Shown here piece by piece: positions 22,745 to 40,466 of a stretch of DNA of 40,466 bases (within the stretch, counting starts at the first letter, position 1; every line of letters starts with the position of its first letter). The DNA is taken from IMG/VR virus record IMGVR_UViG_3300036670_000031, positions 1 to 40,466 of that record. One strand, 5' to 3'. The notes under the pieces were generated by a model that did not search any database, had not been told where the DNA came from, and was given only the letters and a program-made list of their open reading frames with translations. Origin of the DNA: a virus. The translations under genes were made by a program, and so were the position numbers.

Positions 22745-22757
22745 TTAGGTAGAAAAT

Positions 22758-24587: not shown

Positions 24588-24608
24588 TGAGAACCAGGAG
24601 CGCCTTAG

Positions 24609-26915
24609 ATGTCGTATATAATTAATAAATTTAGTGGACCGCAGTTAGTTGTCCTTGAAGACGGGACAATTGATACGTCTACTAGCATTGGGTTGGTTGG
24701 CAGAAATTATGTTGGCTATGGAGAAACTCAGAATGAAAATTTTGTATTCTTATTAGAAAACTTTTCTAATGATTCGGCGCCATCGAGGCCGATCCAAGGG
24801 CAAACGTGGTTTAACTCTACCAACAGTTTACTATACGTGTATAACGGAACTGCATGGGCTGTAGTCGGCGCAGCAATATTATCAGCTACTGCGCCAGAAC
24901 AGCCAGCTAACGGTGCATTGTGGTTAGACAGCGATATCAATACATTAAACATCTGGAATGGTACTGCATGGGAATTTATCGGACCCGAAGTTGCTGAAGG
25001 ATTTGACACTACTCGAGCAAAGTCTACTACTGTATTAGGTATTGATGGTAATCGGCATCCCGTCATACTATTGACTATTGACGGCACAGTAACAGCTATC
25101 TGTTCTACAAGTGCATTTACAATTTCACTATCTGAAACAATTGAAGGATTTTTAGATGTAGTAGCAGGCATTACAATGTCAACACTTCGAACATTTAAAG
25201 GCGATATTATAGGCAATGCTTCTAGTGCAAGTCAATTAGAAGAATTAAGAACAATTAACGGTATAGGATTCAACGGCACATCTGACATTATAGTGCAGGC
25301 CAGCACCTCTAATAATTTAATTAGAGGTGATTATTTAACTGGTTCTAATTTTAACGGATCTATGCCGATTACATGGAGCGTTGATGCAAGCTCTGCAAAT
25401 GTTATTGGAAAAGTTGTAGCAAGAAATAGCCAAGGCGGATTTGCTGCTGGGACTATCACTGCTGACCTAGTTGGCAACGTTGTGGGTAATGTGACTGCAA
25501 CTACTGGAACTAGCGTATTTGATATAATACAAGCTACTCAAATTATTGGACCGGTATTAAGAGGAAATTCGTCTTCAGCAACAAGGTTACAGACAGGCAG
25601 GAATATTAACGGAACTTATTTTGACGGATCTTCAGATGTTACAGTTACCGCTGCCGCAGGCACATTGACCGGCACAACATTAAATGGTGCAGTAACTACA
25701 TCAAGTCTTACTAGTGTTGGAATTTTAACATCTCTTAAAACCGCAGCAACCGGAGTTGAAGTTGATAGTAGTATTAAAATGTTTACCGACACAGGCGGAA
25801 TTCCTACGATTAGAGGATTGGCAAGTAATAAACAAATTAAATTTGACATAGTAGATACCCGTCAAGGAAATATCACAGACATTAGGTTTATTCCATCTGC
25901 TGATTCTCTAGCGTTAGGCGGCCAAGATAGTCCGGCTCTTATACCTACTACTGGAACTATTACTAATTTAGGACACCCTACTGCTGTTTGGAATCAAGTG
26001 TATGCTAGCAACCTAGTTGGAAATGCAGATACTGCAACCTTAGCAGCTACTGCAACAAACATAGCAGCCGGCGCAGCAGGATCTATCCCTTACCAGACAG
26101 CAGCTAGCACAACAAATTTATTGCCTGTCGGGATAGCTGGAACAGTGTTAACTGCCGGTGCAGCAGGTACATTATCTTGGCTAGCAATTGGTCAAGAGGC
26201 TCTATCAAGTGGAACACATTTAAGTTTTATTAACACAGTGAGCGGTTCGCCAGTATTGTCCTACAGTCTATCAACTCCGACAACGCTGTCAATTGATGCA
26301 ACATCGTCTAATACTGCCGGTACAGTAGTTGCTAGAGATAGCAGTGGTAATTTTAGTGCAGGTACTATAACTGCTACAGTGTCTGGTAATGTTACTGGTA
26401 ACGTAACTGGAAATTCAACTACTGCAACTCAACTGCAAACAGCAAGAACAATCAACGGTACGCTGTTTAACGGTACATCGAATATTACTATCTCGGCTCC
26501 AGACACTACAAAAGTTCCGTTAGCAGGCGGCGCAATGACTGGGTATTTAACTTTGGTTGGAACTCCAGTAGCCACTAACCATGCTGCTACAAAAGCATAT
26601 GTTGACAGCAGGATACCACAGTATCAAATTATTTCAGGTTCCTCTTTTAGTACCTCAGGGTTTACTAATCAAGTTGGATCGTTCAATGATGGTGCTAACT
26701 ACTTTGATTTATATCCACCGAGTGGAAAAACAATGGCTAATCTAGTGGCATTTATACCATCAATCCGCATGATTCACTTTGCAGGCGGCGTGAACGGAGA
26801 CGACAGTTTACGATGCACATACTCATACCTTAGCGATAGAGTTCGAGTTTATGTACAAAATACAGAACAGCGATCTACACCAGCAGCAAACTACCTAGTA
26901 ATTTGGAGTCAATAA
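24609..26915 (+). CDS. Tail fibre protein 3
   Basis: This 768-residue fibre has the shared adaptor at 1-~200 (RNYVGYGETQNENFVFLLEN, GQTWFNSTNSLLYVYNGTAW, GALWLDSDINTLNIWNGTAW). It has the most shaft repeats: units like TQLQTARTINGTLFNGTSN recur near residues 201, 317 and 601, with Gly-Asn-rich turns such as GNVTGNVTGNS. Near 640-665 GGAMTGYLTL and NHAATKAYVDSR mark the end of the shaft. The last ~100 residues (NYFDLYPPSGKTMANLVAFI, VNGDDSLRCTY, VRVYVQNTEQRSTPAANYLV) form a conserved tip that I recognise from marine T4-like phage fibres. AGGAG lies 8 bases before the start. The tip is probably the receptor-contacting part. Confidence 0.9.
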   Translation: MSYIINKFSGPQLVVLEDGTIDTSTSIGLVGRNYVGYGETQNENFVFLLENFSNDSAPSRPIQGQTWFNSTNSLLYVYNGTAWAVVGAAILSATAPEQPANGALWLDSDINTLNIWNGTAWEFIGPEVAEGFDTTRAKSTTVLGIDGNRHPVILLTIDGTVTAICSTSAFTISLSETIEGFLDVVAGITMSTLRTFKGDIIGNASSASQLEELRTINGIGFNGTSDIIVQASTSNNLIRGDYLTGSNFNGSMPITWSVDASSANVIGKVVARNSQGGFAAGTITADLVGNVVGNVTATTGTSVFDIIQATQIIGPVLRGNSSSATRLQTGRNINGTYFDGSSDVTVTAAAGTLTGTTLNGAVTTSSLTSVGILTSLKTAATGVEVDSSIKMFTDTGGIPTIRGLASNKQIKFDIVDTRQGNITDIRFIPSADSLALGGQDSPALIPTTGTITNLGHPTAVWNQVYASNLVGNADTATLAATATNIAAGAAGSIPYQTAASTTNLLPVGIAGTVLTAGAAGTLSWLAIGQEALSSGTHLSFINTVSGSPVLSYSLSTPTTLSIDATSSNTAGTVVARDSSGNFSAGTITATVSGNVTGNVTGNSTTATQLQTARTINGTLFNGTSNITISAPDTTKVPLAGGAMTGYLTLVGTPVATNHAATKAYVDSRIPQYQIISGSSFSTSGFTNQVGSFNDGANYFDLYPPSGKTMANLVAFIPSIRMIHFAGGVNGDDSLRCTYSYLSDRVRVYVQNTEQRSTPAANYLVIWSQ

Positions 26916-26916
26916 T

Positions 26917-27273
26917 ATGTATTATGTATGTATAGAGAACGCAGCAGTAACAAGTATTATGTCCTACGAGCCAGCAGTACCGAGCACAGTCAGTATTACC
27001 TTAATTACTGACGAGCAGTATGCTCAAATAATGTCACAAACACACTATTTTAATGTTGAGTCGGCTAATGTATTATCTGTTTCTGCAGAAGTAATTACGC
27101 AAAAAGAAATAGAGATTACAAACGGTCAAGAAAGAGAATTCCTTAATAGTACAGACTGGAAAGTGTTGCGCCATATTAGACAAAAAGCACTAGGTATTAC
27201 AACTAGTTTAACAGAAGAACAATACTTAACACTAGAGTCACAACGAGAAACAGCAGCCAGCAGAATCGTTTAA
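26917..27273 (+). CDS. Small fibre-assembly-like protein
   Basis: 118 residues, starting one base after fibre 3 stops. The N-terminal half is short strands (MYYVCIENAAVTSIMSYEPA). The C-terminal half is helical, with REFLNSTDWKVLRHIRQKAL and then TSLTEEQYLTLESQRETAAS. This Leu-x-x-x-Asp-Trp-x-Val-x-Arg helix followed by a Tyr-x-x-L-x-x-x-R helix is the hallmark ending of many phage tail-fibre assembly proteins, and its place directly after a fibre gene supports that role. It probably helps fold or trimerise fibre 3. A minor virion component is the alternative. Confidence 0.75.
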   Translation: MYYVCIENAAVTSIMSYEPAVPSTVSITLITDEQYAQIMSQTHYFNVESANVLSVSAEVITQKEIEITNGQEREFLNSTDWKVLRHIRQKALGITTSLTEEQYLTLESQRETAASRIV

Positions 27274-27282
27274 TTGGCTTCG

Positions 27283-27290
27283 AATAAATA
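27283..27290 (+). promoter_or_regulatory. Late-promoter-like element AATAAATA
   Basis: This AATAAATA lies in the 43-base gap before fibre 4 and ends 26 bases before its ATG at 27317. The same element at the same distance precedes the genes at 19952 and 31036. A GGGA, possibly the ribosome site, lies at 27303-27306. Confidence 0.55.
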
Positions 27291-27316
27291 CAACTACACT
27301 TTGGGACTATTGAATC

Positions 27317-29089
27317 ATGGCATATCAAGTAAATAATTTTAACGGAACGTTTTTAACATCTGTAGCAGACGGAACCATCGATTCCACTACAGATTTACGT
27401 TTCGTTGGTAAGAACTACGCAGGTTACGGCGAAGTGCAAAATGAAAACTATCTACATTTAATGGAGCATTTTGCTAATACTACTCAACCTCCTAAAGCAG
27501 TTACCGGTCAAATTTGGTACGATAGTGCAAACAAAAAATTAAAGTTTTATAATGAGACAGATGCAAAGTGGAAAGTTGCCGGCGGCGCCGAAGTAGCAGC
27601 TACTGCACCTAGCGGATTAGCAATAGGTGAATTTTGGTGGGATAGCTCTGCTAAACAGTTGTATGCATATACCGGAACCGACTTTATACTAGTTGGTCCA
27701 GCAGCTAGTCCAGATTTAGGTACAAGTTCAGTAATTGCCCAAGTAGTTAAAGATACGTTAAACACTAGTCATACTATTCTTAAATTTATCGCCGGCGGCA
27801 CGACAACCAAAACTATAGCAATTGTAAGCCAAGACGAATTTACGCTTAACAGCGGAGTGAATCCTATTACTGGATTTACAGTAATCAAGAAAGGTATTAC
27901 ATTAATTAATACAAATAGCTCCGGAGTAGGGTCAAGCGATGAATTAGTATGGGGAACAGCATCTAACTCTTTAAGATTAGGGGGAGTGTTGGCAACCCAG
28001 TTCTTACAACGCGGCGAAAATTCGTTTACGTCTGGAGTTAGTTTTGCAACTGACGCTGGAATAACTATCGGTGTAGATAGCGACATACGCCTTTGGATTG
28101 ATCCAACCGCAGGTGCTCTTATTGAAAATCAAATTGGCGAAACAATTACTGTACGGATCACGAACCCAATCGGGTCAATTTCTAAAGATGTTGCAGTGTT
28201 TAGCGACACTGGTATAACGCCGTCACAGACTAGCACATACGATCTAGGAACTACTAGTTCAATATGGCGTAACATATATGCAACTACAGTAACAGCTAAC
28301 TTAGTTGGTAACATTACTGGAAATTCCACTGGAAATCATATTGGCAATCTAATAGCAACTGATTCTACAGTGATGATTAATGGTAGCTCAAAAGAAATTG
28401 GCTATGCTGGTGCAATACTCAGAGGAACATTATTTGGAAACGTGCAAGGAAACTTAACTGGTAACTCAGACAATGCTAGCAAGTTAGGAGAGAACAGCCC
28501 ATCAGTAACATTGCCTAGTACCGCTGATAAAAGTTCAATTCCTGTTAGAAGTACAGACGGTGATATCACAGCTAGAAAATTTATAGGAACATCAAACAGT
28601 GCTGACCAACTATTAGTTGGAGCAATATATCGATCTTCTTCTACATCAGCTGATATCAATACTATTGCAGTTAGAGATAGTGCAGGCGATATTTATGGAT
28701 CGATATTTCAAGGAACAGCAGCAGCAGCTAGGTACGCTGACTTGGCAGAAAAATATTTACCAGATGCAGAATATGCTCCTGGCACTGTTATGTGCATTGG
28801 CGGTAACGCAGAAGTTACTGCTAGCATGTTAGGTAACCGTGCTATTGGAGTAATTAGTACCAATCCTGCCTATATGATGAACAAAGATCTAGAAGGCGGT
28901 GTGTATGTTGCACTTAAAGGGCGTGTTCCTTGTAAAGTAGTTGGTTGTATTAAGAAAGGTGACGAGCTAGTAGCATCAAATGATGGATGTGCTATAATAG
29001 CAGCGCCACATGCAAGCGGAGTATTTGCTGTTGCACTAGAAAGCAGTGATGACGAAGGTGCAAAAGTAATCGAAGTATTGGTACTATAA
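27317..29089 (+). CDS. Tail fibre protein 4
   Basis: This 590-residue fibre has the shared adaptor at 1-~190 (KNYAGYGEVQNENYLHLMEH, GQIWYDSANKKLKFYNET, GEFWWDSSAKQLYAYTGTDF, SQDEFTLNSGVNPITGFT). The shaft contains STYDLGTTSSIWRNIYATTV and Gly-Asn repeats (GNITGNSTGNHIGN), echoing fibres 1 and 3. Residues ~473-590 (YADLAEKYLPDAEYAPGTVM, GVISTNPAYMMN, VALKGRVPCKVVGCIKKGD) form a C-terminal domain common in marine phage structural proteins. It is reminiscent of the autocleaving G2-type fibre-end domains, but I cannot point to a catalytic pair, so no cleavage is claimed. It has its own late-promoter-like element, separate from fibres 1-3. Confidence 0.88.
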   Translation: MAYQVNNFNGTFLTSVADGTIDSTTDLRFVGKNYAGYGEVQNENYLHLMEHFANTTQPPKAVTGQIWYDSANKKLKFYNETDAKWKVAGGAEVAATAPSGLAIGEFWWDSSAKQLYAYTGTDFILVGPAASPDLGTSSVIAQVVKDTLNTSHTILKFIAGGTTTKTIAIVSQDEFTLNSGVNPITGFTVIKKGITLINTNSSGVGSSDELVWGTASNSLRLGGVLATQFLQRGENSFTSGVSFATDAGITIGVDSDIRLWIDPTAGALIENQIGETITVRITNPIGSISKDVAVFSDTGITPSQTSTYDLGTTSSIWRNIYATTVTANLVGNITGNSTGNHIGNLIATDSTVMINGSSKEIGYAGAILRGTLFGNVQGNLTGNSDNASKLGENSPSVTLPSTADKSSIPVRSTDGDITARKFIGTSNSADQLLVGAIYRSSSTSADINTIAVRDSAGDIYGSIFQGTAAAARYADLAEKYLPDAEYAPGTVMCIGGNAEVTASMLGNRAIGVISTNPAYMMNKDLEGGVYVALKGRVPCKVVGCIKKGDELVASNDGCAIIAAPHASGVFAVALESSDDEGAKVIEVLVL

Positions 29090-29090
29090 T

Positions 29091-29987: not shown

Positions 29988-29991
29988 CATT

Positions 29992-29999
29992 GTTAAATA
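29992..29999 (+). promoter_or_regulatory. Possible weak late-promoter variant (GTTAAATA)
   Basis: GTTAAATA lies in the 32-base gap before the second structural paralogue and ends 20 bases before its ATG. It shares the TAAATA core but neither the A before it nor the 26-base spacing of the better sites. A strong AGAGGAAAG ribosome site follows at 30004-30012. Confidence 0.25.
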
Positions 30000-30019
30000 G
30001 AGTAGAGGAAAGTTAATAC

Positions 30020-30976: not shown

Positions 30977-31001
30977 AATATTTCTCTCTAGCAGCATCGC
31001 A

Positions 31002-31009
31002 AATAAATA
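31002..31009 (+). promoter_or_regulatory. Late-promoter-like element AATAAATA heading the modification cassette
   Basis: This AATAAATA lies in the largest gap of the window (59 bases) and ends 26 bases before the ATG at 31036. An AGGAGA ribosome site is at 31026-31031. It is the last such element I see upstream of the coupled genes that run to the window end, so it may drive the whole cassette. Confidence 0.55.
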
Positions 31010-31035
31010 AACTGCTATGTTAATTAGGAGAAACA

Positions 31036-31386
31036 ATGGACGATCAACTCAAACAAGCTCTGGACTTTGCCAATTATCGCCAGACATTTTCAATCCAACG
31101 ACAAACACTTAAAGAAAAAATTGAAGCCAAACTAACTTACGGCGTTAGCGGAGGCATCTTTAAAATTGATAAATCTCTAATTGCCTATGTGCAAATGTTA
31201 GTAGATAGAGGGCGCACTGGAGGCGTGCCGTTAATTGATTCAAACGATAATCCTATTCTTATTACTAATCTCGAAGATTTCCGCGATAAAATCTTAGACA
31301 GATACTATACTACTACTTTTGAGTACTACGATCAATACCAAGAGTTAAAAAAAAGTAGATCAGTAGAAAAATTGTTAGATCTATGA
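31036..31386 (+). CDS. Conserved phage protein of unknown function, first gene of the cassette
   Basis: 116 residues, mostly helical at both ends. The N-terminal part is charged (FANYRQTFSIQRQTLKEKIE). A central segment reads GGIFKIDKSLIAYVQMLVDR then PLIDSNDNPI, and the C-terminal helix has DRYYTTTFEYYDQYQELKKS. I recognise it as a small protein found widely in marine T4-like phages but know no function for it. No catalytic motif or membrane segment is visible. It overlaps the next gene by ATGA, which couples its translation to the glycosyltransferase genes downstream. Confidence 0.82.
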   Translation: MDDQLKQALDFANYRQTFSIQRQTLKEKIEAKLTYGVSGGIFKIDKSLIAYVQMLVDRGRTGGVPLIDSNDNPILITNLEDFRDKILDRYYTTTFEYYDQYQELKKSRSVEKLLDL

Positions 31387-32246
31387 AATGCGGCGCACTA
31401 ATATTTGCACATAATAACAGAGAGGTTGATTACGCTTTACTGTCTGTAATATCTGCAGGGCTAGTTAAAAAGAATTTACAAGTCCCAGTATCTCTAGTTA
31501 GTGATGAATCTACTATTGAGTGGATGAAAACTTCTAACATTTATAGTAGAGCTGTAGAAGTATTTGATCAAATTATCCAAGTAGAAAAACCTGTTACTAA
31601 TAACTATCGCAATCTACATGATGGTACAAGTAAGAAAATCGTGCCTTTTGTAAATTCTAATCGTGCCAGCGCCTACGACCTAACACCGTATGATAGGACA
31701 TTACTGCTTGATAGTGATTTTTTAATATTTTCAGATAGATTAAATGAATATTGGGAAGTAGATGAAGATGTCCTAATAGCAGAATCAATGTTAGATTTTT
31801 ACAGCCAATCACGCATGGGTTATCATGACAAGTATATTTCTGATACTGGAGTACACATGTTTTGGGCTACCACTGTGATGTTTACTAAAAATAAAAACGG
31901 AAAAAGATTTTTTGACCTAGTAAATTTCGTTAGAGAAAACTATCAATACTACGGAGATCTGTTTAGATTTGATACAAAACAATATCGAAATGATATTGCA
32001 TTTAGTGTTGCTAATCACATACTTTTTGGGTTTAAAACTGATAAACGCATTAGCCTGCCAAAGTTATTAACTGCTATTGACAAAGACATATTACACAGCG
32101 TAGACGACTCTGGAAAATTAATTTTTCTAATCAATGCAAATTTAAACGATAAATTTTGCGCAGCAGCAATTAAAGATATCGATGTGCATGTTATGAACAA
32201 AGAAAGCATTGTGAGAAATGCAAAATCTCTATTGAGGTTAATATGA
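31383..32246 (+). CDS. GT-A-like glycosyltransferase, pair A copy 1
   Basis: 287 residues with a nucleotide-sugar transferase layout. It has an N-terminal strand and helix (MKCGALIFAHNNREVDYALL), a substrate-side segment with alternating strands, and YDRTLLLDSDFLIF with a D-S-D motif at residues 110-112, the usual metal and nucleotide-binding position. A later MFWATTVMFTKNKNGKRFFD strand-helix follows. The start overlaps the previous stop (ATGA), as does its own stop with the next gene. It resembles the next gene in overall order, suggesting duplication. Acceptor and donor sugar are unknown. Assignment rests on fold-like features and the DxD motif, not on an identified subfamily. Confidence 0.72.
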   Translation: MKCGALIFAHNNREVDYALLSVISAGLVKKNLQVPVSLVSDESTIEWMKTSNIYSRAVEVFDQIIQVEKPVTNNYRNLHDGTSKKIVPFVNSNRASAYDLTPYDRTLLLDSDFLIFSDRLNEYWEVDEDVLIAESMLDFYSQSRMGYHDKYISDTGVHMFWATTVMFTKNKNGKRFFDLVNFVRENYQYYGDLFRFDTKQYRNDIAFSVANHILFGFKTDKRISLPKLLTAIDKDILHSVDDSGKLIFLINANLNDKFCAAAIKDIDVHVMNKESIVRNAKSLLRLI

Positions 32247-33082
32247 ACTTTGGATATCTAATATTTGTAGCCAAGCACGAAACAGTTGACTATGCTAAAC
32301 TAGCGTATGCATTAGCATTAAGTATTAAGAATACACAAAAAGAAGGGTACGATAAGGTTGCAATAGTAATTGACAATCCTGCCGACCTAGATAGATTTGA
32401 ATCTAAATGGGTATTTGATCACATTATTCCGTGGGATCAAGAAACTTTTTGGAACGGTCGTAGTTGGATGGATAAGCTAACCCCGTTTGAGTACACTGTC
32501 TGTTTAGATGTTGATATGTTGTTTCTAAAAGATTATAGTTACTGGATTGATTATTTCATTGAAAATAATAAGTTATATATTCCAAATAAAAGCTACACAT
32601 ATCGAGGTGAGATAGTAACTAGCGACGACTATCGTAAAACTTTTACCAAAAATAATCTGCCAAATTTATATTCATTCTTTACATTCTTTAAGAAAGATAG
32701 TACACTAGTTAATGAGTTCTTTACTCTTGGACGTTATATTATTAAAAATCCCAAGGAGTTTTCTAACTTGTTTCTTACTGCACTTAAACCAAAAGTAGTA
32801 GGGACAGATGAAGCGTTTGCCCTTAGTGCAAAGATTTTAGGAATAGAAGATATAATTGCCTATGATTTAGAATTTCCTAGGGTAGTGCATCTAAAACCGC
32901 TAGTACAGAATTGGCCATGGCCTGCCGACAGGTGTTCTGATCATGTTGGATTTTATTTTAATAAACAGGGAAAATTAAAAATAGGAAATTATCAGCAGAA
33001 TGATATTGTACACTATGTTGAAAAAGATTTAATTACAACCGAAATGATAAACATCTTAGAGGAACTAGCATGGAAGAAATGA
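32243..33082 (+). CDS. GT-A-like glycosyltransferase, pair A copy 2
   Basis: 279 residues, similar in layout to the previous gene: MNFGYLIFVAKHETVDYAKL at the start, then PFEYTVCLDVDMLFLKDYSY with a D-V-D motif at residues 89-91. Later come a FFTFFKKDSTLVNEFF stretch, TDEAFALSAKILGIEDI (a T-D-E-A segment often seen near the acceptor side of GT-A enzymes) and a C-terminal VHLKPLVQNWPWP. The two genes may add successive sugars or different sugars to one acceptor. It overlaps the previous gene by ATGA and the next by 13 bases. Enzyme activity is inferred. Confidence 0.75.
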   Translation: MNFGYLIFVAKHETVDYAKLAYALALSIKNTQKEGYDKVAIVIDNPADLDRFESKWVFDHIIPWDQETFWNGRSWMDKLTPFEYTVCLDVDMLFLKDYSYWIDYFIENNKLYIPNKSYTYRGEIVTSDDYRKTFTKNNLPNLYSFFTFFKKDSTLVNEFFTLGRYIIKNPKEFSNLFLTALKPKVVGTDEAFALSAKILGIEDIIAYDLEFPRVVHLKPLVQNWPWPADRCSDHVGFYFNKQGKLKIGNYQQNDIVHYVEKDLITTEMINILEELAWKK

Positions 33083-33693
33083 GTGACTTAGAAACATTGA
33101 TGGCAAATATAGAAATGCCTGAAATTAAGTACGTTGCAGTATTTGATCCTGATACTGGGGAAGTAACCAGTGTCGGACCGTCTTATGCGTTTCCTGAAGA
33201 AAAGTTTACCTTAGATCTCGATGACGAAACTGCACTTTCTATAATAGAAGGCAGAACAAAGATACATGCGTGTTTTGTTGACCCTACATCAAATACTCTA
33301 GAGCTAACTGGACGCAGGACAGAGCTTAAAATGGACGATGTGCTGCATAGAATAGTTGATAGTCGATGGAGCAATATAGAAAAACCAGACCTTCACATTA
33401 CATACGATAATAACACTATAGTTTTTCAACTAACGGAAGAATTATATGGAACTTATATTTTAGATAAGAAGTTCCAACCGGTAAAGAAAAGAGAAGTTAG
33501 ATGGGATAGGGACATGCAGCTTCATTTTTTTATAACAGAATACAATGATCCTAATATACTTTATCAGTCTGTTGTTGTAACACTTGCTGATATTATAGCA
33601 AAATCTCATACAGTTGATGTAACAAATTTACCAGTAAAGTTTAGTATATATACTAGGCGTGTTTTTAAAAATTACGTGATTGAAAAATTATGA
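33070..33693 (+). CDS. Unrecognised phage protein between the glycosyltransferase pairs
   Basis: 207 residues with no family I recognise. It is acidic at the start and mostly beta after that: KYVAVFDPDTGEVTSVGPS, IHACFVDPTSNTLELTGRR, LHITYDNNTIVFQLTEE and VRWDRDMQLHFFITEYNDP. The closing segment (PVKFSIYTRRVFKNYVIEKL) is basic. No signal peptide, membrane segment or catalytic motif is seen. The start at 33070 has AGGA six bases upstream. An alternative ATG at 33079 would give an ATGA overlap with the preceding stop, like its neighbours. The beta-rich make-up and the DPDTGEV strand, which recalls DPETGEV in the protein at 19952, would suit a virion component. That is only suggestive. Confidence 0.8.
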   Translation: MEEMSDLETLMANIEMPEIKYVAVFDPDTGEVTSVGPSYAFPEEKFTLDLDDETALSIIEGRTKIHACFVDPTSNTLELTGRRTELKMDDVLHRIVDSRWSNIEKPDLHITYDNNTIVFQLTEELYGTYILDKKFQPVKKREVRWDRDMQLHFFITEYNDPNILYQSVVVTLADIIAKSHTVDVTNLPVKFSIYTRRVFKNYVIEKL

Positions 33694-34571
33694 GAATAGT
33701 TGAATTTGATATTATTTTTCTAAGTTATGATGAGCCTAATGCAGATTTGCATTACGCAGATTTATGCAATAAAGCACCATGGGCTAAACGTGTACATGGA
33801 GTTAAAGGCAGTGACGCTGCTCATAAAGCAGCAGCTGAGTTAAGCGATACTGATTGGTTCATTACAGTTGATGCAGACAATATGGTAGATCCTAAATTCT
33901 TTGATCTAGAACTAGACATGAGCGATCCTAAGATACAAGTCTACGGATGGTGTGCTAGAAATTCTATCAACGGTTTACGTTATGGTAACGGCGGCCTAAA
34001 GATTTGGAAAAAAGAGTTTGTGTTAAACATGCGCACACACGAAGCAGCAGAAAGCGATCGTGCCCAAGTTGATTTTTGTTGGGAAGATGGATACAAGAAC
34101 TTTCCAAAGATCTATAGTGACAGCATTATTACAGGATCGCCTTTTCAAGCGTGGAGAGCAGGGTTTCGTGAAGGTGTTAAAATGACTCTGCTTGACGGCG
34201 AAAAAGTGCCAGCACAAGAAATACAAGAACGTATTTGGTGGCATAATATTCATAGACTGCGTATGTGGTCGACTGTAGGTATGCACGAAGAACACGGTGC
34301 CTATGCAATCCTTGGCACACGTATGGGAACATACATGACTAACTGTACAGATTGGAACTATGTAGATGTTAGAGACTTCGAGCTATTAAAAGATATCTAC
34401 GAAGAAAAAGTTAACCACATCGACGTCGAAGCCGATGCACAAGTGCTAGGTGAAAAGATTAAACAAGAGCTAGGTCTTAAGTGGCCTTGGTTAAATGCAG
34501 AACAGAGTAAGTACACATTAGCGCTTTATGATGAAACAATTAATTTAGGCTTAACTTATTACCGACAATGA
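33690..34571 (+). CDS. GT-A-like glycosyltransferase, pair B copy 1
   Basis: 293 residues. The start FDIIFLSYDEPNADLHYADL is a beta-strand and loop typical of GT2-like enzymes. DWFITVDADNMVDPKFFD gives a D-A-D motif at 61-63 for metal and nucleotide binding. NSINGLRYGNGGLKIWKKEF and SPFQAWRAGFREGVKM follow and are shared with the next gene. The C-terminal third is helical and Trp-rich (WWHNIHRLRMWSTVGMHEEH). It overlaps both neighbours by ATGA. I recognise this type from marine T4-like phages near tail genes. Whether it modifies DNA, virion or cell surface is not visible from the sequence. Confidence 0.7.
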   Translation: MRIVEFDIIFLSYDEPNADLHYADLCNKAPWAKRVHGVKGSDAAHKAAAELSDTDWFITVDADNMVDPKFFDLELDMSDPKIQVYGWCARNSINGLRYGNGGLKIWKKEFVLNMRTHEAAESDRAQVDFCWEDGYKNFPKIYSDSIITGSPFQAWRAGFREGVKMTLLDGEKVPAQEIQERIWWHNIHRLRMWSTVGMHEEHGAYAILGTRMGTYMTNCTDWNYVDVRDFELLKDIYEEKVNHIDVEADAQVLGEKIKQELGLKWPWLNAEQSKYTLALYDETINLGLTYYRQ

Positions 34572-35236
34572 AATACGATATAATCTTCATTAGTTACAGT
34601 GAGCCTAACGCGGACGAAAACTTTAATAAACTAAAGGCAAGATTTCCCTACGCTCAACGAGTTAGCGGAGTTACAGGAATACACCAGGCACACATTGCAG
34701 CAGCTAGGAAAGCCTTTACTAAGATGTTTTGGGTAGTTGACGGCGATGCTGTAATTGTAGACACATTCAACTTTAATTATGTAGTAAGCAAATACGATCT
34801 AGAATGTGTACATGTTTGGCGCAGCCAAAATCCAGTTAATGGACTAGAATACGGATACGGCGGAGTTAAACTACTTCCTAAGAAGTTGACTATGACTATG
34901 GACTTAGCTAGACCTGACATGACAACAAGCATTAGTCCGCTGTTTAAGGCCATGGAAGAGATCAGTAACATTACTGCATTTAACACTGATCCTTTTAACA
35001 GTTGGAAAAGTGCATTTAGAGAATGTTGTAAATTATCTAGTCGCGTTATTGATAGACAAGACGATACTGAAACTCAACAACGATTAGACACCTGGTGTAC
35101 AGTTGGCACAGACATCGATGTACTTGCAGGAGCAATTGCTGGCCGCAAGTACGGTGAAGAAAATAAATTAGATGTAGAAGCATTAAAAAAGATTAACAAT
35201 TTTAAATGGTTAGAGGAACAGTTCTATGGACGATAA
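34568..35236 (+). CDS. GT-A-like glycosyltransferase, pair B copy 2, shortened
   Basis: 222 residues, paralogous to the gene before it: YDIIFISYSEPNADENFNKL, AQRVSGVTGIHQAHIAAARK, VVDGDAVIV with D-G-D at 58-60, NPVNGLEYGYGGVKLLPKKL, DPFNSWKSAFRECCKLSSRV and TWCTVGTDIDVLAGAIAGRK. It is about 70 residues shorter, having lost part of the Trp-rich region and the C-terminal helices, yet the DxD-like motif and the central blocks are kept, so it is probably active or a partner subunit. Its end overlaps the radical SAM gene by 11 bases and supplies that gene's AGGA ribosome site. Confidence 0.68.
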   Translation: MKYDIIFISYSEPNADENFNKLKARFPYAQRVSGVTGIHQAHIAAARKAFTKMFWVVDGDAVIVDTFNFNYVVSKYDLECVHVWRSQNPVNGLEYGYGGVKLLPKKLTMTMDLARPDMTTSISPLFKAMEEISNITAFNTDPFNSWKSAFRECCKLSSRVIDRQDDTETQQRLDTWCTVGTDIDVLAGAIAGRKYGEENKLDVEALKKINNFKWLEEQFYGR

Positions 35237-36593
35237 ACAACGCATACAAAAATTCATTCCCATAATGAAAGAAGTTAGTCCAACTTTCTGTTTGGCCAAA
35301 TGGCATCACACTACTATCTATTTGCAAACGGGAGAAACACACAGTTGCTACCATCCTGCGCCTCACAAAATTCCCTTGGCTGAAATTGCACTAGACCCAA
35401 GCGCATTACATAATACTAAAGAAAAAATTAGTGAACGTGCTGAAATGATTGCAGGCAAAAAGCCTAGTGGTTGCAATTATTGCTGGAACATTGAAGCAAT
35501 GGGGGAGGATTATATTAGCGATCGCAAGGAGCGTAACGCAAGTATCTATACTGAGGAAAGACTCGGAGCTATAAAAGCTAATCCTCTAGCTCCTGTAAAT
35601 CCACAATACATTGAGGTAAGTTTTGGTAATGAATGCAATTTCAAATGCGGATATTGCCATCCTAAGCATAGTAGTGCATACCACAAAGAGATCAAAGATT
35701 TTGGACCGTATGATATGGTTAAAAATCACCGCAATGATATTAACTGGTTCACTGTCTATGAAGAAGATACTAATCCTTACGTAGAAGCATGGTGGAAGTG
35801 GTGGCCCGAGGTTAGTAAGACCTTAACAATATTACGAATTACTGGCGGCGAACCGCTATTACAAAAATCAACTTGGAGACTCTTAGATGAGCTTGATAAT
35901 AATCCTAAACCTAATCTCGAGCTTAATATTAATAGCAACTTCGGAGTTAAGCCAATACTTATCGATCGATTAGTAGAAAAGGTAAATGCTCTCTTAGCTA
36001 AAGGTGCAATTAAAGACTTTAAGATTTTTACTAGCATGGATACATGGGGACCGCAAGCGGAATACATACGCACAGGGCTAGATTTAACTGTTTGGGAAAA
36101 GAACTTAGATACATATCTAACTAAAACCACGTTACCGGTTACATTTATGTGTACCTTTAATATTCTAACAGTAACAAACTTCCAAAGTTTATTAGAAAAG
36201 ATCTTAGAATGGCGTGTTAAGTATAATGGTTTTGATCAGAACAAATGGCAGCGTATACGCTTTGACACTCCGTTCTTAAAAGAGCCATTACAGTACGACA
36301 TGAATTTATTGCCTAAAGATGAGTTTATGCCTTACATGCAAAGACATCTAGACTTCATTCTAGCCAATCTAGACGATAAAAACCGTAGCAAATTCAACGA
36401 CTTAGAGTATGAAAAATTCCTAAGAGTAGTAAAATACATGGAATCAGCTATCTATACCTCAGAAAAACTAAAAGAAGGCAAACGCGACTTCTTTAATTGG
36501 TTTACAGAATACGACCGCAGACGCGGTACTAATTTCTTAGAAACATTTCCAGAATTGGAAAACTTCTATCTTGAGTGTAGACAAACAGAATAA
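35226..36593 (+). CDS. Radical SAM enzyme with N-terminal auxiliary cysteine cluster
   Basis: 455 residues. The radical SAM cluster motif is at 137-144 (CNFKCGYC, C-x3-C-x2-C), preceded by QYIEVSFGNE and followed at ~206 by RITGGEPLL, which contacts S-adenosylmethionine. Four further cysteines, C22, C41, C83 and C86, sit in a Trp-, His- and Gly-containing context (TFCLAKWHH, HSCYHP, SGCNYCWNIE). That context resembles the SPASM/twitch region that binds a second iron-sulfur cluster, but here it comes before the core and not after it. The rest of the barrel and a helical, basic tail (FNWFTEYDRRRGTNFLETFP) fill 210-455. SPASM-type enzymes often modify peptides or proteins. The substrate here is unknown. 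Ribosome site AGGA is 8 bases upstream. Confidence 0.9.
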   Translation: MDDKQRIQKFIPIMKEVSPTFCLAKWHHTTIYLQTGETHSCYHPAPHKIPLAEIALDPSALHNTKEKISERAEMIAGKKPSGCNYCWNIEAMGEDYISDRKERNASIYTEERLGAIKANPLAPVNPQYIEVSFGNECNFKCGYCHPKHSSAYHKEIKDFGPYDMVKNHRNDINWFTVYEEDTNPYVEAWWKWWPEVSKTLTILRITGGEPLLQKSTWRLLDELDNNPKPNLELNINSNFGVKPILIDRLVEKVNALLAKGAIKDFKIFTSMDTWGPQAEYIRTGLDLTVWEKNLDTYLTKTTLPVTFMCTFNILTVTNFQSLLEKILEWRVKYNGFDQNKWQRIRFDTPFLKEPLQYDMNLLPKDEFMPYMQRHLDFILANLDDKNRSKFNDLEYEKFLRVVKYMESAIYTSEKLKEGKRDFFNWFTEYDRRRGTNFLETFPELENFYLECRQTE

Positions 36594-36600
36594 GGACACT

Positions 36601-37626
36601 ATGAGCAAAACAATTTTAATTACAGGCGGCGCCGGGTTTATAGCTCACCATTTAGTTGATAAAATATTAACCGAAACTGATTGGAGAATCGTAACCCTTG
36701 ATCGATTAGATTACAGTGGAAATTTAAATAGATTAAACGACGTAGTAATGTCTCACCCTGCAATCGAGCGCAAACGTGTAAGGGTAGTTCATCACGATCT
36801 AAAGGCAGAACTAAATTCTCAAATTAGATCAATGATTGGAAAAGTTGATTTAATAGCGCACCTTGCCGCAGGAAGTCACGTTGATCGATCCATTTCTTAT
36901 CCTATGGAATTCGTACAAGACAATATAGTGGGCACTGTTAATTTAATGGACTACGCTCGTAATTTAGATAGCTTAGATCTGTTTGCGTACTTTTCAACAG
37001 ATGAAATTTTTGGACCGGCACCTGTTGGAGTTAGCTACAAAGAAAACGATAGATATAACAGCACCAATCCTTACAGTGCTAGCAAAGCTGCCGCAGAAGA
37101 AATGGTAGTTGCATACGAGAATACTTACGGTCTTCCGGCAATTATTACTCACACTATGAATGTATTTGGGGAAAGACAACATCCTGAAAAGTATATTCCT
37201 ATGTGTATCAGAGGTGTTCGAGATAACGAAAAAATTACAGTACATGCTAACTCAGAAAAAACAATTGCAGGATCAAGGCATTACATACATGCTCGAGACG
37301 TTGCAGATGCATTGATGTTTTTATATCATACTGACCTTAGTAAATTAGAACCAGACTACGGTGGCGCAAAATGTCAAAAATTCAATATTGTAGGATCTAC
37401 AGAGATTGACAATTTAAAATTAGCACAGTTTATTGCTGAAGTTCAAGACAAACAGCTCAACTACGAAATGTGTGATTTCCACACTAGTCGACCTGGCCAC
37501 GATTTGCGATATGCACTAGATGGTACTAAGATGAAACAGTTAGGATGGGAACCGCAGCCAGCATATGAAAGATTAGAAGAAGTTGTTCGCTGGACATTAA
37601 AAAATAATAGATGGCTAATAGTTTAA
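36601..37626 (+). CDS. RmlB-like NAD-dependent sugar-nucleotide dehydratase/epimerase
   Basis: 341 residues of the extended short-chain dehydrogenase family. The Rossmann motif ITGGAGFIAHH is at residues 7-17, HLAAGSHVDRS follows, SFSTDE-type FSTDEIFG has T133-D134-E135, and Y158-S-A-S-K162 is the catalytic YxxxK. The T-D-E triad plus YxxxK is the signature of dTDP-glucose 4,6-dehydratase (RmlB), though the sugar could differ. The ATG at 36601 is preferred over an in-frame ATG at 36571 because AAGGAC lies just before it and the latter would overlap the radical SAM gene more deeply. It would supply a 4-keto-6-deoxy sugar nucleotide to the glycosyltransferases alongside. No other sugar-nucleotide gene is seen in the window. 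Confidence 0.9.
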   Translation: MSKTILITGGAGFIAHHLVDKILTETDWRIVTLDRLDYSGNLNRLNDVVMSHPAIERKRVRVVHHDLKAELNSQIRSMIGKVDLIAHLAAGSHVDRSISYPMEFVQDNIVGTVNLMDYARNLDSLDLFAYFSTDEIFGPAPVGVSYKENDRYNSTNPYSASKAAAEEMVVAYENTYGLPAIITHTMNVFGERQHPEKYIPMCIRGVRDNEKITVHANSEKTIAGSRHYIHARDVADALMFLYHTDLSKLEPDYGGAKCQKFNIVGSTEIDNLKLAQFIAEVQDKQLNYEMCDFHTSRPGHDLRYALDGTKMKQLGWEPQPAYERLEEVVRWTLKNNRWLIV

Positions 37627-38399
37627 TCAATATTAATAATTTATCAACATCATTTGATAATTTTCATAAAGAAAAATATTCACACTGTGTAATTGATAAT
37701 TTTTTAAATGAAGATGTTGCTACCCAGATAGCAGCAGATTTTCTTGCGTATGATTCTGGATTATTTAACGGCAACTATGATAATCAAATTGAACTGAAGC
37801 GTACTTGTAATATATGGGATAGATTCCCAGCAAGCATTTATAAGCTAATAACGTATCTTAACTCAACAGATTTTATTAATGTTCTATTAAGTCACACCGG
37901 ACTTGATCACTTATACAGTGATCCTGGGATTCACGGTGGTGGAATGCATTCGCATCCTCGAGGAGGCAAACTTAATCCTCATCTTGATTACAGTCTTCAT
38001 CCTAAGTTAGGATTACAACGAAAATTTAATCTTCTCATTTACCTTACTCCCGAATGGCAACATACTTGGGGAGGGAATTTTGGAATATGGGATACAGACG
38101 GAACATCTCCAACAGCATTACTTAAAGAAATATTACCAACATTTAACAGAGCTATATTTTTTGATACAACCCAACATTGTTGGCATGGGTTATCTACGCC
38201 TGTAACTTCACCGATAAATATATCAAGAAACAGTATAGCAATGTATTACTTAATATCCCCTCCTGCAGATACCAATCAACGAAACCGGGCATTATTTGCC
38301 CCGACCGCTCATCAAAAAAATAACCAAGATATTCTAGATTTAATAGAACGGCGCAGTGTTACTAACGGAACGTCAGTTGAACAATGGAATCGATTATGA
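37611..38399 (+). CDS. 2OG-Fe(II) oxygenase-like protein
   Basis: 262 residues. The double-stranded beta-helix core shows H124-x-D126 in LNPHLDYSLHP, a distal His in TQHCWHGLSTP (H192 is the best candidate, with H189 beside it) and R206 in SRNSIAMYY. Together these are the iron and 2-oxoglutarate ligands of the prolyl-hydroxylase-like family. The strand KFNLLIYLTPEW followed by GGNFGIWDT is also typical. It would hydroxylate a protein or a sugar. The start overlaps the previous gene's end by 16 bases and has no clear ribosome site, suggesting translational coupling. The family call is good; the substrate is unknown. Confidence 0.87.
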   Translation: MANSLININNLSTSFDNFHKEKYSHCVIDNFLNEDVATQIAADFLAYDSGLFNGNYDNQIELKRTCNIWDRFPASIYKLITYLNSTDFINVLLSHTGLDHLYSDPGIHGGGMHSHPRGGKLNPHLDYSLHPKLGLQRKFNLLIYLTPEWQHTWGGNFGIWDTDGTSPTALLKEILPTFNRAIFFDTTQHCWHGLSTPVTSPINISRNSIAMYYLISPPADTNQRNRALFAPTAHQKNNQDILDLIERRSVTNGTSVEQWNRL

Positions 38400-39721
38400 A
38401 TTTTATATTTGAAAATCTACGCACACACACAAATTTTTCACAATGTCCAGATGTTAATACCTCGGGAATACGTAGATTTACCGCAAGCCCGTTAGTAACC
38501 TCGATAATTCGATGGAAGACTATTAAATTGCCATTAGTTGATCTTGATACTATTTCTGTAAATTCTAATTATTGGGATAAGCGAAAATTATATCCAAAAT
38601 ATATTATTTCAGCAGGCGTGACACATTCTCCTTGGGACTGGTGCGGATATACTGATCTAAACAAAAAACACGATACATATATGCTTGAGCGTAAAACAAT
38701 ATTTGCTTACTTATCAGAGAAGCAGCTATCGGCTATTCGCAAAAAGAAATGCTTCTTGTTATTAGACCAATCACACGAAGGATATCATACTAGTTGGTTG
38801 TTTGAATGGTTTCATGATTGTTGTAATCATTACGATATAAATCCTACACAAATAATATATGTAACTGGAAATCTTGCAGTCATTGAACAATATAATAATT
38901 GGTGCAACATCAACACAATACAAGATAAAATGTGTGTAATTCCAAATATTCAATTTGAAGAATTTATACAAGATGCTGCCGAAAAACAAGGTAGTACATT
39001 GCCAACTTCATTCCAACAAATTGAATATAAGACCAAGAATACAGACAATATTAAATTATACAATGCATTTCAAAAGAGAACAAGGCCTCACCGCATTTGG
39101 CTGTTTAGTAAATTATACGAAAATAATTTACTAGACGTTGGCATTAATAGTATGAATTCATTTAGACATTCTAATTCATACTACGAAGGAAAAACACTAA
39201 ATGTTGAACTATACAAGTCCTTGATTAATATATTGCCAATATACCCAAGAACTGACCTTAATGATAAATTTAAAGATGCATTTGAAGGTGGGCTCGGCGG
39301 CCTGTTTGAACGAGACTTAAATCACCAGGCAACGTTAGATACATGGATAAGTGTAATTAGCGAAGCGTCGTTTGCTGAAGATACTTGTTTCATAAGTGAA
39401 AAAAGTTTTAAGCCGATAGCAACGTGTCATCCTTTTATTATGTATGGCAATAAACATAGTTTAAAATATCTTAAAAATTTAGGGTATAAAACATTTAGCG
39501 ATTTTTTTGACGAGTCGTATGATGATTTAGAATCCTGGGATCGATTAGATGCAATTATAAAATTATTAAAAGACATTAACTTAATGGATGCTGATAAAAA
39601 AATACAATGGTTTACATCTATGAAAGATGTGTTAGATTATAACTTTAATGTTTTAAAAGAAAATACAAGGGCCAAAACACCAAGGTCTGCAATACTATTA
39701 TCTAACTACATGGCGGATTAA
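38396..39721 (+). CDS. GT-B-like glycosyltransferase (putative)
   Basis: 441 residues from the ATGA overlap at 38396, preferred over an ATG at 38384. The C-terminal third, residues ~331-385 (FISEKSFKPIATCHPFIMYG, then LKYLKNLGYKTFSDFFDESY), matches the E-K-x-F-K-P-I...H-P-F pattern of retaining or fucosyl-type GT-B enzymes, where Glu and Lys contact the nucleotide-sugar. An N-terminal half with KKKCFLLLDQSHEGYHT and TQIIYVTGNLAV strands fits a second Rossmann-like domain. The family is not certain, but the pattern is one I associate with glycosyltransferases of marine phages. It would act with the sugar-nucleotide gene two places upstream. Confidence 0.7.
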   Translation: MNFIFENLRTHTNFSQCPDVNTSGIRRFTASPLVTSIIRWKTIKLPLVDLDTISVNSNYWDKRKLYPKYIISAGVTHSPWDWCGYTDLNKKHDTYMLERKTIFAYLSEKQLSAIRKKKCFLLLDQSHEGYHTSWLFEWFHDCCNHYDINPTQIIYVTGNLAVIEQYNNWCNINTIQDKMCVIPNIQFEEFIQDAAEKQGSTLPTSFQQIEYKTKNTDNIKLYNAFQKRTRPHRIWLFSKLYENNLLDVGINSMNSFRHSNSYYEGKTLNVELYKSLINILPIYPRTDLNDKFKDAFEGGLGGLFERDLNHQATLDTWISVISEASFAEDTCFISEKSFKPIATCHPFIMYGNKHSLKYLKNLGYKTFSDFFDESYDDLESWDRLDAIIKLLKDINLMDADKKIQWFTSMKDVLDYNFNVLKENTRAKTPRSAILLSNYMAD

Positions 39722-39723
39722 AA

Positions 39724-40466
39724 ATGTATAATACTCAAATTATTGAAATTAATAAAGATTTAAAAAGAACACGAAAAGCAATTATTAGTTTAGGATGTTC
39801 ATTTGTTGAAGGCCAAGGAGCAGTCGATCAAGAAATTTGCGATAGCTATCAATGGTCTATGGCTAAGATTGGAGTTCCTATGGAACCAATTTTATCAAAA
39901 AATGAAAAGTCTAAAATGCTATCTGATCATCCAGAGCTATCAATAGATAACACTGGCCGTATAATTTGGAAATTTATGGAATACAAGAATGCATTTGTTG
40001 AAGTATTATGTAAAAAATATTTTAAGGGCACGTATACTCCTATTAATTTTGGTATTAGGGGAAAGGGCAATCGGGCGTCCATTAAAAGTTTATATTTTCA
40101 TCCTCAAATAAACTGGAACAACATTGACGAATTAATAGTGCTATATGTTCCAAGCGGGCCTGAACGATTTGATTTTGTAAGTGACGAATTCAATGAACAC
40201 CATCAGTTTCAGTGTGCATGGCCTTGGTCCGACGATCAAGAAAAAGGCCCTAGAAAAACGCTATGGAAAGGATACGGTACTGCAATATATAGCGAAAAGT
40301 CAGCAATGCTAGAGCAAATATCAAATGTTATTGAATTAGAAAACTGGTGCAAATTAAAAAATGCAAAATTAATAATTACTCCTGGATTTGATACATCGTA
40401 CAAACAAGAAAGATTTAATGAAATTATTCAAGATCTATCAGAGAGAACTAGTAATCAGAAAACTAT
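39724..40466 (+). CDS. SGNH/GDSL-hydrolase-like protein (truncated by window end)
   Basis: The frame runs from ATG at 39724 off the end of the window (247 complete codons). It opens with a short helix and then AIISLGCSFVEGQG, where S26 in G-C-S takes the place of the GDS nucleophile block. FGIRGKGNRAS is the glycine/asparagine block, and ELIVLYVPSGPERFD the third strand with an unusual loop. This layout is typical of phage SGNH-like proteins near tail genes. The catalytic Asp and His blocks would lie further on and are not in the window. An ester-cleaving or acetyl-transferring role on a glycan is possible but unproven. It starts two bases after the preceding gene and has no strong ribosome site. 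Confidence 0.72.
   Translation, partial: MYNTQIIEINKDLKRTRKAIISLGCSFVEGQGAVDQEICDSYQWSMAKIGVPMEPILSKNEKSKMLSDHPELSIDNTGRIIWKFMEYKNAFVEVLCKKYFKGTYTPINFGIRGKGNRASIKSLYFHPQINWNNIDELIVLYVPSGPERFDFVSDEFNEHHQFQCAWPWSDDQEKGPRKTLWKGYGTAIYSEKSAMLEQISNVIELENWCKLKNAKLIITPGFDTSYKQERFNEIIQDLSERTSNQKT

Follow-up and report, generated by a model that had tools for sequence, protein, structure and literature searches.

The gene cluster behind the tail fibre genes

The virus record IMGVR_UViG_3300036670_000031 of the IMG/VR database comprises 40466 bases and was analysed as a whole; this complete record, which has no sequence past position 40466, is referred to as the window. Its right-hand end carries eleven open reading frames (ORFs) on the plus strand, g1 to g11, which span positions 31036 to 40464 and are preceded by a T4-like baseplate and tail fibre region. 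The initial annotation had considered these genes to be one coupled cassette that might build an unusual glycan or another modified structure. That a glycan pathway is encoded beside the tail fibres has good support in the results given below. The eleven genes as a set, however, fall into two parts, a near-constant core (g1-g7) and part of an exchangeable cassette (g8-g11). The elements of the locus are:

29091-29987 and 30020-30976, plus strand: f1 and f2, virion-type paralogues directly ahead of g1 (42% mutual identity), proposed acceptor
31004..31009, plus strand: TAAATA, core of a T4-type late-promoter motif before g1
31036..31386, plus strand: g1, small conserved protein of unknown function, operon head
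31383..32246, plus strand: g2, GT8-like putative GT-A glycosyltransferase
32243..33082, plus strand: g3, putative GT-A-like glycosyltransferase
33070..33693, plus strand: g4, fast-evolving beta-rich protein of unknown function
33690..34571, plus strand: g5, putative glycosyltransferase of GT-A fold, among the two most conserved core genes
34568..35236, plus strand: g6, shorter paralogue of g5
35226..36593, plus strand: g7, N-twitch radical S-adenosylmethionine (SAM) protein, last gene of the constant core
36601..37626, plus strand: g8, short-chain dehydrogenase/reductase (SDR) resembling dTDP-glucose 4,6-dehydratase, first gene of the swappable cassette
37611..38399, plus strand: g9, 2-oxoglutarate (2OG)-Fe(II) oxygenase
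38384..39721, plus strand: g10, enzyme of unknown function, proposed transferase, commonest cassette family
39724..40464, plus strand: g11, SGNH-like, putatively an esterase or acyl transferase, truncated at the record end

The coupling of the genes is evident from their spacing. From g1/g2 to g6/g7, consecutive genes overlap by 4, 4, 13, 4, 4 and 11 nucleotides (nt). Overlaps of 16 nt are found at g8/g9 and at g9/g10, and g10 and g11 are 2 nt apart. For g8, a TTG at 36571 or, more likely, the ATG at 36601 is the start codon. While g11 is truncated in the window, the region beyond could be read in a related record of 186,312 bases (L082), which is 99.8% identical to the window over its last 16.8 kb (23690-40466). 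It supplies the complete g11 (343 amino acids, aa), followed by an additional SGNH-like gene (280 aa) and a convergent operon.

A near-constant core of seven genes

For g7, scans of IMG/VR retrieved 405 relatives, and for g5 at least 598; the best 80 of each were retained. This resulted in 148 loci, of which 93 are non-redundant after removal of 55, so that the counts apply to those members of the group that match best. Genes were considered to abut if separated by at most 60 nt. By this measure, the abutment of g1 and g2 (72 of 72 cases), g2 and g3 (77 of 77), g3 and g4 (78 of 79), g4 and g5 (83 of 83) and g6 and g7 (76 of 82) recurs throughout the non-redundant loci, and the coupling is thus more than chance. 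g5 precedes g6 in 88 of 90 loci. In 49 the gap is within the limit, while bigger gaps fit longer forms of g6. Also f2 is found before g1 in all 61 loci compared, although never within 60 nt (median 70). The order f1-f2 was recovered in only 46 of 61, which is probably due to cross-matches between these paralogues.

Median identities to the window were computed for 49-50 loci, omitting those that are at least 99% identical. Among the nine genes compared, the highest medians are those of g7 (83%, range 38-99%) and g5 (80%), as opposed to 50% for f1 and 45% for f2. Behind the fibre genes, g1-g7 (31036-36593) represent a core that is nearly constant. A divergent copy of g7 (38-43% identity, best segment) occurs in about eight non-redundant loci among the matches listed (L111, L122, L124, L125, L130, L132, L141 and L144), with some of the copies cut by contig ends.

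One relative (L012, 8512-10011) carries a gene resembling flavin-dependent tryptophan halogenases (PF04820, 283 bits), which is inserted between g6 and g7 and hints at halogenated products in some relatives.

An exchangeable cassette behind g7

There are 31 loci which carry a gene of the g7 family together with d1, a marker of the downstream convergent operon. Two of these (L111 and L130, with copies being 38-48% identical) were left out, so that 29 were compared. Between g7 and d1 there are 2.1-8.2 kb of sequence (median 4.4 kb), and these stretches code for 124 proteins of at least 80 aa, which form 15 clusters; Pfam was run on the cluster representatives only. The commonest cassette gene is g10, the family being present in 27 of the 29 cassettes with 42 copies. 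It is followed by g11 (16 cassettes), SDR (15), UDP-glucose-dehydrogenase-like proteins (11), 2OG oxygenase (8) and a second SGNH-like cluster (7). Radical SAM clusters occur in 4, 2, 2 and 1 of the cassettes, the last two clusters being of the B12-binding type. In all 29 loci the cassette, of which g8-g11 are a part, ends at one and the same convergent operon.

The set g8-g9-g10-g11 was found in only four of the 29 loci (L004, L048, L069 and L074, the latter with extra genes ahead), and we have rejected the view that the eleven genes are one obligate unit. When co-occurrence in related phages was checked, as the initial annotation had proposed, g1-g7 were found together in near-fixed order, while g8-g11 proved to be one of many interchangeable sets.

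The joints of the cassettes are at the end of g7. In L022 and L029, g7 is 97.4% identical while the next 2 kb are entirely unalignable. Conversely, L022 and L004 have only 81.8% identity in g7 and are 99.6% identical beyond it. Among 82 loci there are 107 pairs with at least 90% identity in g7, and in nine of these less than 30% of the next 2 kb can be aligned. With near-duplicates included in the count, the nine pairs correspond to three independent cases; most pairs with near-identical g7 also share the following sequence. The joint in L022 is possibly an assembly chimaera, yet L025/L030 and L013/L020 have the same type of joint.

Some cassettes have a composition of their own. Those of L121 (12433-15845) and L126 are built of radical SAM genes, one of them coding for a protein of 821 aa in which two radical SAM stretches and two SPASM stretches are present. 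B12-binding radical SAM proteins are found within the cassettes of L128 (17293-19251) and L031 (15217-17382).

Late-promoter motif and hydropathy

The hexamer TAAATA is found 30-37 nt ahead of the g1 start in all 67 loci with a mapped g1 start, with a chance expectation of 2.1% per 70 nt. Within 70 nt it does not occur before g2 (0 of 72), g3 (0 of 77), g4 (0 of 69) and g5 (0 of 88) and was found before g7 in 2 of 84 loci. Within 70 nt before the fibre gene f0 it is present in 34 of 39 loci. In the related phage CBB, ATAAATA has been hypothesized to be a late promoter, and in GAP32 it is also predicted ahead of structural genes (PMC5259590, available text).

Membrane segments were searched for by hydropathy (mean Kyte-Doolittle value above 1.6 over 19 residues), with three membrane proteins as controls (2.3-2.9). 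None of the eleven window proteins, with g11 being cut, exceeds the threshold. Among the 124 cassette proteins there are two which do so, both dehydrogenase-like, with a maximum of 1.63. Thus, by hydropathy, the eleven window proteins give no sign of the membrane flippase or lipid-carrier transferase of Gtr-type serotype conversion. A pathway that is soluble and late would be easier to reconcile with virion proteins being modified in the cytoplasm than with a periplasmic O-antigen conversion.

Assignment of the individual proteins

The enzyme family is clear for three proteins, in agreement with the initial annotation. g7 scores 323.2 bits over residues 1-398 against the N-twitch radical SAM family N_Twi_rSAM (NF033640; curated cut-off 170). 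The CxxxCxxC site (C137/C141/C144) and the N-terminal auxiliary cysteines C22, C41, C83 and C86 are invariant in 32 alignment rows. We know of no established reaction for the N-twitch radical SAM family. g8 is a nucleotide-sugar SDR (PF16363, 172.2 bits, cut-off 27) with a dTDP-glucose 4,6-dehydratase as PDB match (E 7e-50). As it scores 245.5 bits against the RmlB equivalog TIGR01181, below the cut-off of 365.1, the label RmlB-like is retained in the sense of 4,6-dehydratase-like only. g9 is a 2OG-Fe(II) oxygenase (PF13640, 55.5 bits, cut-off 27), with OGFOD1 as best PDB match (E 6e-6) and weak similarity to the peptide-maturing 2OG family NF041706 (17.4 of 150 bits).

Four GT-A-like enzymes had been proposed, and this holds for g5 and, through it, for g6. 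The AlphaFold model of g5 (predicted local distance difference test, pLDDT, 86; predicted template modelling score, pTM, 0.84) has many GT-A chains among its structural matches in VIA, with Z up to 10.8 and with B4GALNT1 matching over 141-145 residues at a root-mean-square deviation of 3.1-3.2. However, the list also includes the nucleotidyltransferases IspD and MobA (Z 9-10), and the best Foldseek match, RmlT, has an E-value of 7e-5 but a low TM-score of 0.35. The residues D61 and D63 of the DxD motif are invariant in 35 rows, while the score against Pfam GT2 (PF00535) is 14.2 bits and thus below the cut-off of 23.3. We retain the label of a putative glycosyltransferase with a predicted GT-A fold, with a reservation for the low TM-scores and the nucleotidyltransferase matches. 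g6 is 31% identical to g5, and six g6 sequences are in the range of 31-37%. In several relatives g6 has additional N-terminal half-domain repeats, with forms of 346-760 aa, and these extra stretches align, with 17-28 bits, to approximately the first third of the profile of g5/g6. Examples with several such half-GT-A-like repeats are found in L130 (10893-13175) and L029 (1572-3200), and the number of repeats differs between phages.

For g2 and g3 the GT-A label is weak. Both have an invariant DxD motif (D110/D112 and D89/D91, respectively, 17 rows each), and PDB profile searches gave no match for either of them. g2 scores 17.7 bits against Pfam GT8 (PF01501), below the cut-off of 24.3. The window protein g3 had no match in the family search, and 17 members of its family gave three matches, all to chance-level families.

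The GT-B label given to g10 is not upheld by Pfam, NCBIfam or PDB profile searches. Among 20 members of the g10 family, 19 have no Pfam match and one has an irrelevant match; there is no NCBIfam match, and PDB matches are at chance level (E at least 0.17). The SGNH label of g11 is weak: a GCSF block and a CHPSAKGH end were recognized by eye, while the full-length copy from L004 has no match in Pfam or NCBIfam.

The remaining core proteins are conserved to a different degree. g1 has a mean column identity of 71% (alignment A5) and no match in Pfam or PHROGs. g4 evolves fast (median identity to the window 44.5%). Its AlphaFold model (pLDDT 85, pTM 0.56) is beta-rich, and comparison with PDB structures gave VIA Z values of at most 5.5, mainly over residues 105-207, so that no fold was assigned. 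Three viral proteins match g4 at E below 0.001, two of them from uncultured Caudovirales.

As to the proposed acceptors, f1 and f2 have no PHROG match. Residues 2-219 of f2 match gp360 of the Pseudomonas phage PA5oct (29% identity, E 1e-4), a protein for which the record notes detection by electrospray ionization tandem mass spectrometry (ESI-MS/MS) and which closes the PA5oct tail operon.

Relatives in bacterial genomes

A genome scan with g7 gave 69 loci, 52 of which are titled with Bdellovibrionota groups (Bdellovibrio, Bacteriovorax, Halobacteriovorax and their kin, and one Oligoflexia). After removal of eight phage-like loci, neighbours within 4.5 kb were counted for 61 loci. The g7 kin are accompanied by an unknown protein (21 loci), glycosyltransferases (19), PqqD (12), ABC ATPases (11), further radical SAM proteins (10), carbamoyltransferases (10) and ABC-2 membrane proteins (8). 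The frequent company of glycosyltransferases, ABC transporter genes and carbamoyltransferases was counted in favour of the glycosylation system proposed below.

In a quick tree of 118 proteins (rows from motif patterns, midpoint root), which does not give the direction of transfer, 24 core phage sequences and that of the phage-like locus L216 form a clade (86). Its sister group consists of L150 and L151, short contigs of metagenome-assembled genomes (MAGs) titled Bdellovibrionales and Bdellovibrio, and the whole has a Shimodaira-Hasegawa-like approximate likelihood ratio (SH-aLRT) support of 95. The other phage copies of g7 nest among Bdellovibrionota sequences.

Genomes were sampled from the phyla of L175 (Bdellovibrionaceae), L216 (Rhodobacteraceae) and L152 (Flavobacteriales; Bacteroidota), the first two sets including their central genome, which had been picked for carrying the g7 family. 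In the L175 phylum, 55 of 191 genomes have NF033640 above its cut-off, and in the L216 phylum 3 of 200. The g5 family is present in 12 of the 191, on contigs of up to 2 Mb, and in one of the 200, which is the central genome with its phage-like contig. It was found in none of 198 genomes of the L152 phylum, a set without a positive control.

One genome of the L175 phylum (G168; contig L227, 7061-19001) carries an f1-like gene, g1, g2, g3, a gene for a 163-aa protein in the place of g4 and a relative of g5, plus a g5-g6 fusion; radical SAM genes follow. The genes are 27-42% identical to their phage counterparts and are located near the end of a contig of 139,884 bases. With the f1-like gene and the kin of g1-g5 found together, it looks as if substrate and enzymes travel together. 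The genes beside them are, as we assume from their sequence, rplS, trmD, pheS and pheT. In the 19 kb read, neither f0, f2, the fibre gene 24609-26915 nor d1/d2 gave a match as best query; virion profiles were not run. The module may be a phage remnant or a misassembly. No second bacterial genome with an f1-g1 module was found: f1/f2 and g1 each match in one of 191 genomes of the phylum, and g1 in one of 129 genomes of the family. As this lone match is G168, whose L227 sequences are themselves in the alignments used as queries (A4 and A5), the result is informative only for the other genomes.

Gene sharing makes Bdellovibrionota our best guess for the host. To our knowledge, few large phages of these predators of bacteria have been described. 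A host assignment from MAG bins alone was rejected, as the deeper phage-like contigs are binned in differing groups, namely Betaproteobacteria (L183), Rickettsiales (L204), Pelagibacter (L206), Verrucomicrobia (L208) and Rhodobacteraceae (L216).

Two bacterial loci, L171 (Bacteriovoracaceae) and L186 (a bacterial contig), have eight and seven g7-like matches, respectively, within about 20 kb.

Comparison with known phage systems

A literature search found no description of this locus. Also, g1, g3, g5, g7, g10 and a bacterial g5 had no tblastn match among 50,697 phage records, in which the nearest relatives are possibly not included. There are close precedents, though, and the type of combination cannot be called unprecedented. 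The pelagimyophage host recognition cluster has tail fibres, GT8, UDP-glucose dehydrogenase and radical SAM cassettes (PMC7029224, available text) and is, like the locus described here, a variable island of fibre, glycosyltransferase and radical SAM genes in T4-like aquatic phages. According to the same text, it is a nonsyntenic island between VrlC and gp14; the comparison is by description and not gene by gene with HTVC008M. In contrast, the locus in the window has a near-syntenic core of seven genes with its own late-promoter motif, and mainly its distal part is exchanged. Radical SAM and carbohydrate genes have also been reported for a T4-like phage of Campylobacter (PMC3322345, available text).

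The lipopolysaccharide (LPS) clusters of the cyanomyophages S-SM2, S-SSM7 and P-SSM2 likewise combine nucleotide-sugar epimerases and transferases in T4-like phages (PMC3037559, available text). g8 is 68% identical to a protein from S-SM2, and the distance between relatives of g8 and g9 is 2.6 kb in AG-345-L05, a Kyanoviridae single-cell record, and 5 nt in AG-345-E08. However, the S-SM2 cluster is beside tRNA genes while the locus described here is behind tail fibres. The tail operon of the Pseudomonas jumbo phage PA5oct is alike by position, with a giant virion protein gene, fibre genes and an f2-like gene, only the f2 match having been measured. It differs in that the annotated operon stops after the f2-like gene, the next genes being on the opposite strand with none annotated as a glycan enzyme. 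Mycobacteriophage virion glycosylation, with glycans on capsid and tail tube (Freeman 2023, cited in the available text of PMC12619734), is a parallel in the proposed mode of action. We did not adopt the Moraphages (PMC12619734) as the lineage, since 'radical SAM' does not occur in the main text as available and the hosts are mostly predicted to be Bacteroidota.

Islands of a similar kind have been published. What is new are the details, namely a core that hardly varies, the joints at which cassettes are swapped, the motif of a late promoter, the module of a fibre-type gene plus enzymes and the links to predatory bacteria.

A proposed glycosylation system for tail fibres

The locus is real, widespread and functionally coherent. 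We propose that it represents a glycosylation system, soluble and expressed late, by which the phage modifies its own tail fibres or virion, with an exchangeable finishing chemistry, and assign a probability of about one half to this reading. Decoration of the fibres is the inference that the data support best. One late promoter ahead of g1 would drive the operon while virion proteins are made. The core, with the putative transferases g2, g3, g5 and g6, the radical SAM protein g7, and g1 and g4 of unknown role, would build a common stem or attachment, which is probably placed on the neighbouring fibre-type proteins f1/f2, or possibly on other virion carriers. The back cassette would provide interchangeable finishing steps: a 4-keto-6-deoxy nucleotide sugar made by g8, an oxidation by g9, a transfer by g10 and possibly an acyl step by g11. 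The cassette would be exchanged by recombination between g7, which is conserved, and the convergent operon downstream, so that phages of the same lineage may present different terminal glycans. The glycans might serve for shielding, receptor fit or stability.

Several observations weigh against this proposal. The functions of g2, g3, g10 and g11 are read from motifs or from the company of these genes, and late timing is read from the motif only. Within 70 nt, TAAATA precedes f2 in 39 of 51 loci, where it is less evenly placed, and f1 in one of 11. Proteins of the f1/f2 type occur in PA5oct in the absence of the cassette, and of the 12 Bdellovibrionota genomes in which the g5 family was found, 11 lack a match to f1 or g1. 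Finally, PqqD beside bacterial g7 kin (12 of 61 loci) could point to peptide chemistry.

The operon might instead remodel the surface glycan (O-chain) of the infected host and thus exclude other phages, as has been proposed for pelagimyophages, where the available text of PMC7029224 argues in this way for GT8-rich islands beside tail fibres. The bacterial g7 kin near glycosyltransferases and ABC-2 transporter genes would agree with this, as would the sugar-nucleotide enzymes of the cassette, which vary like serotype genes; peripheral enzymes could act on lipid-linked host precursors. We consider this possible, although with low confidence. The late-type promoter motif, the lack of clear membrane segments by hydropathy (and hence of any sign of a Gtr-type flippase, a lipid-carrier transferase or a polymerase) and the pairing of a fibre-type protein with the core on the bacterial contig L227, all of them sequence features, favour the fibres or the virion over the host surface.

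The radical SAM protein and the oxygenase could also modify a peptide of the fibre or virion, resembling the maturation of ribosomally synthesized and post-translationally modified peptides (RiPPs), with sugars as a second layer. The N-twitch radical SAM core with its four invariant auxiliary cysteines would suit such chemistry, as would PqqD beside the bacterial kin, the weak resemblance of g9 to NF041706 and OGFOD1, and the cassettes of L121 and L126 with their radical SAM genes. Yet many glycan genes are among the bacterial neighbours, a 2OG oxygenase is present in only 8 of the 29 cassettes, and Pfam recognized neither a precursor peptide nor PqqD in the window, with no dedicated search having been made. 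We regard this explanation as doubtful.

Phage glycosyltransferases and 2OG enzymes can modify DNA, and one gene of the convergent operon (L016, 17803-18663), which we take to be QueE-like, hints at deazaguanine DNA modification, its score against Pfam Radical_SAM (20.4 bits) being below the cut-off. Nevertheless, DNA hypermodification with sugars is very improbable given the late motif and the fibre neighbourhood, and a gene of the thymidylate synthase type (PF00303) is absent from all four long relatives, each of them possibly a fragment. That the islands are passive 'stuffer DNA' without a phage function, as considered for the cyanophage LPS clusters in the available text of PMC3037559, would fit the variable content of the back half and is hardly credible for a locus in which g5 and g7 have higher median identities than f1 and f2 and in which the catalytic motifs are invariant.

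If the proposed fibre glycosylation is correct, a widespread group of uncultivated phages sugar-coats its fibres and exchanges the outer part as a cassette, which would be the viral counterpart of serotype switching in bacteria. The N-twitch radical SAM family would gain a system that can be tested and in which a likely acceptor is encoded nearby, and the shared genes point to Bdellovibrionota as candidate hosts. A more far-reaching version is tentative: f1/f2 and g1-g7 may be a self-contained unit of a fibre protein and its dedicated soluble glycosylation enzymes, with plug-in cassettes for terminal sugars behind g7, that moves as a whole between large phages and the predatory Bdellovibrionota. 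The phages would then infect Bdellovibrionota and vary their virion glycans in a manner like serotype switching.

The structural region ahead of the operon

The tail fibre genes of the window (20597..29089, plus strand) each belong to PHROGs tail or virion-structural families:

20597-22744, plus strand: fibre gene with a Collar domain (PF07484, 62.8 bits)
22758-24587 and 24609-26915, plus strand: fibre genes
26917-27273, plus strand: fibre assembly protein
27317-29089, plus strand: f0, fibre gene

Further upstream is gp6 (2732-6112), which shares 31-36% identity with the baseplate proteins of several large phages, among them Phosso, Atu_ph07, PBECO4 and CBB. It is followed by an ORF of 4595 aa (6135-19922), which corresponds, by position only, to the 11.5 kb gene for the virion structural protein gp355 of PA5oct.

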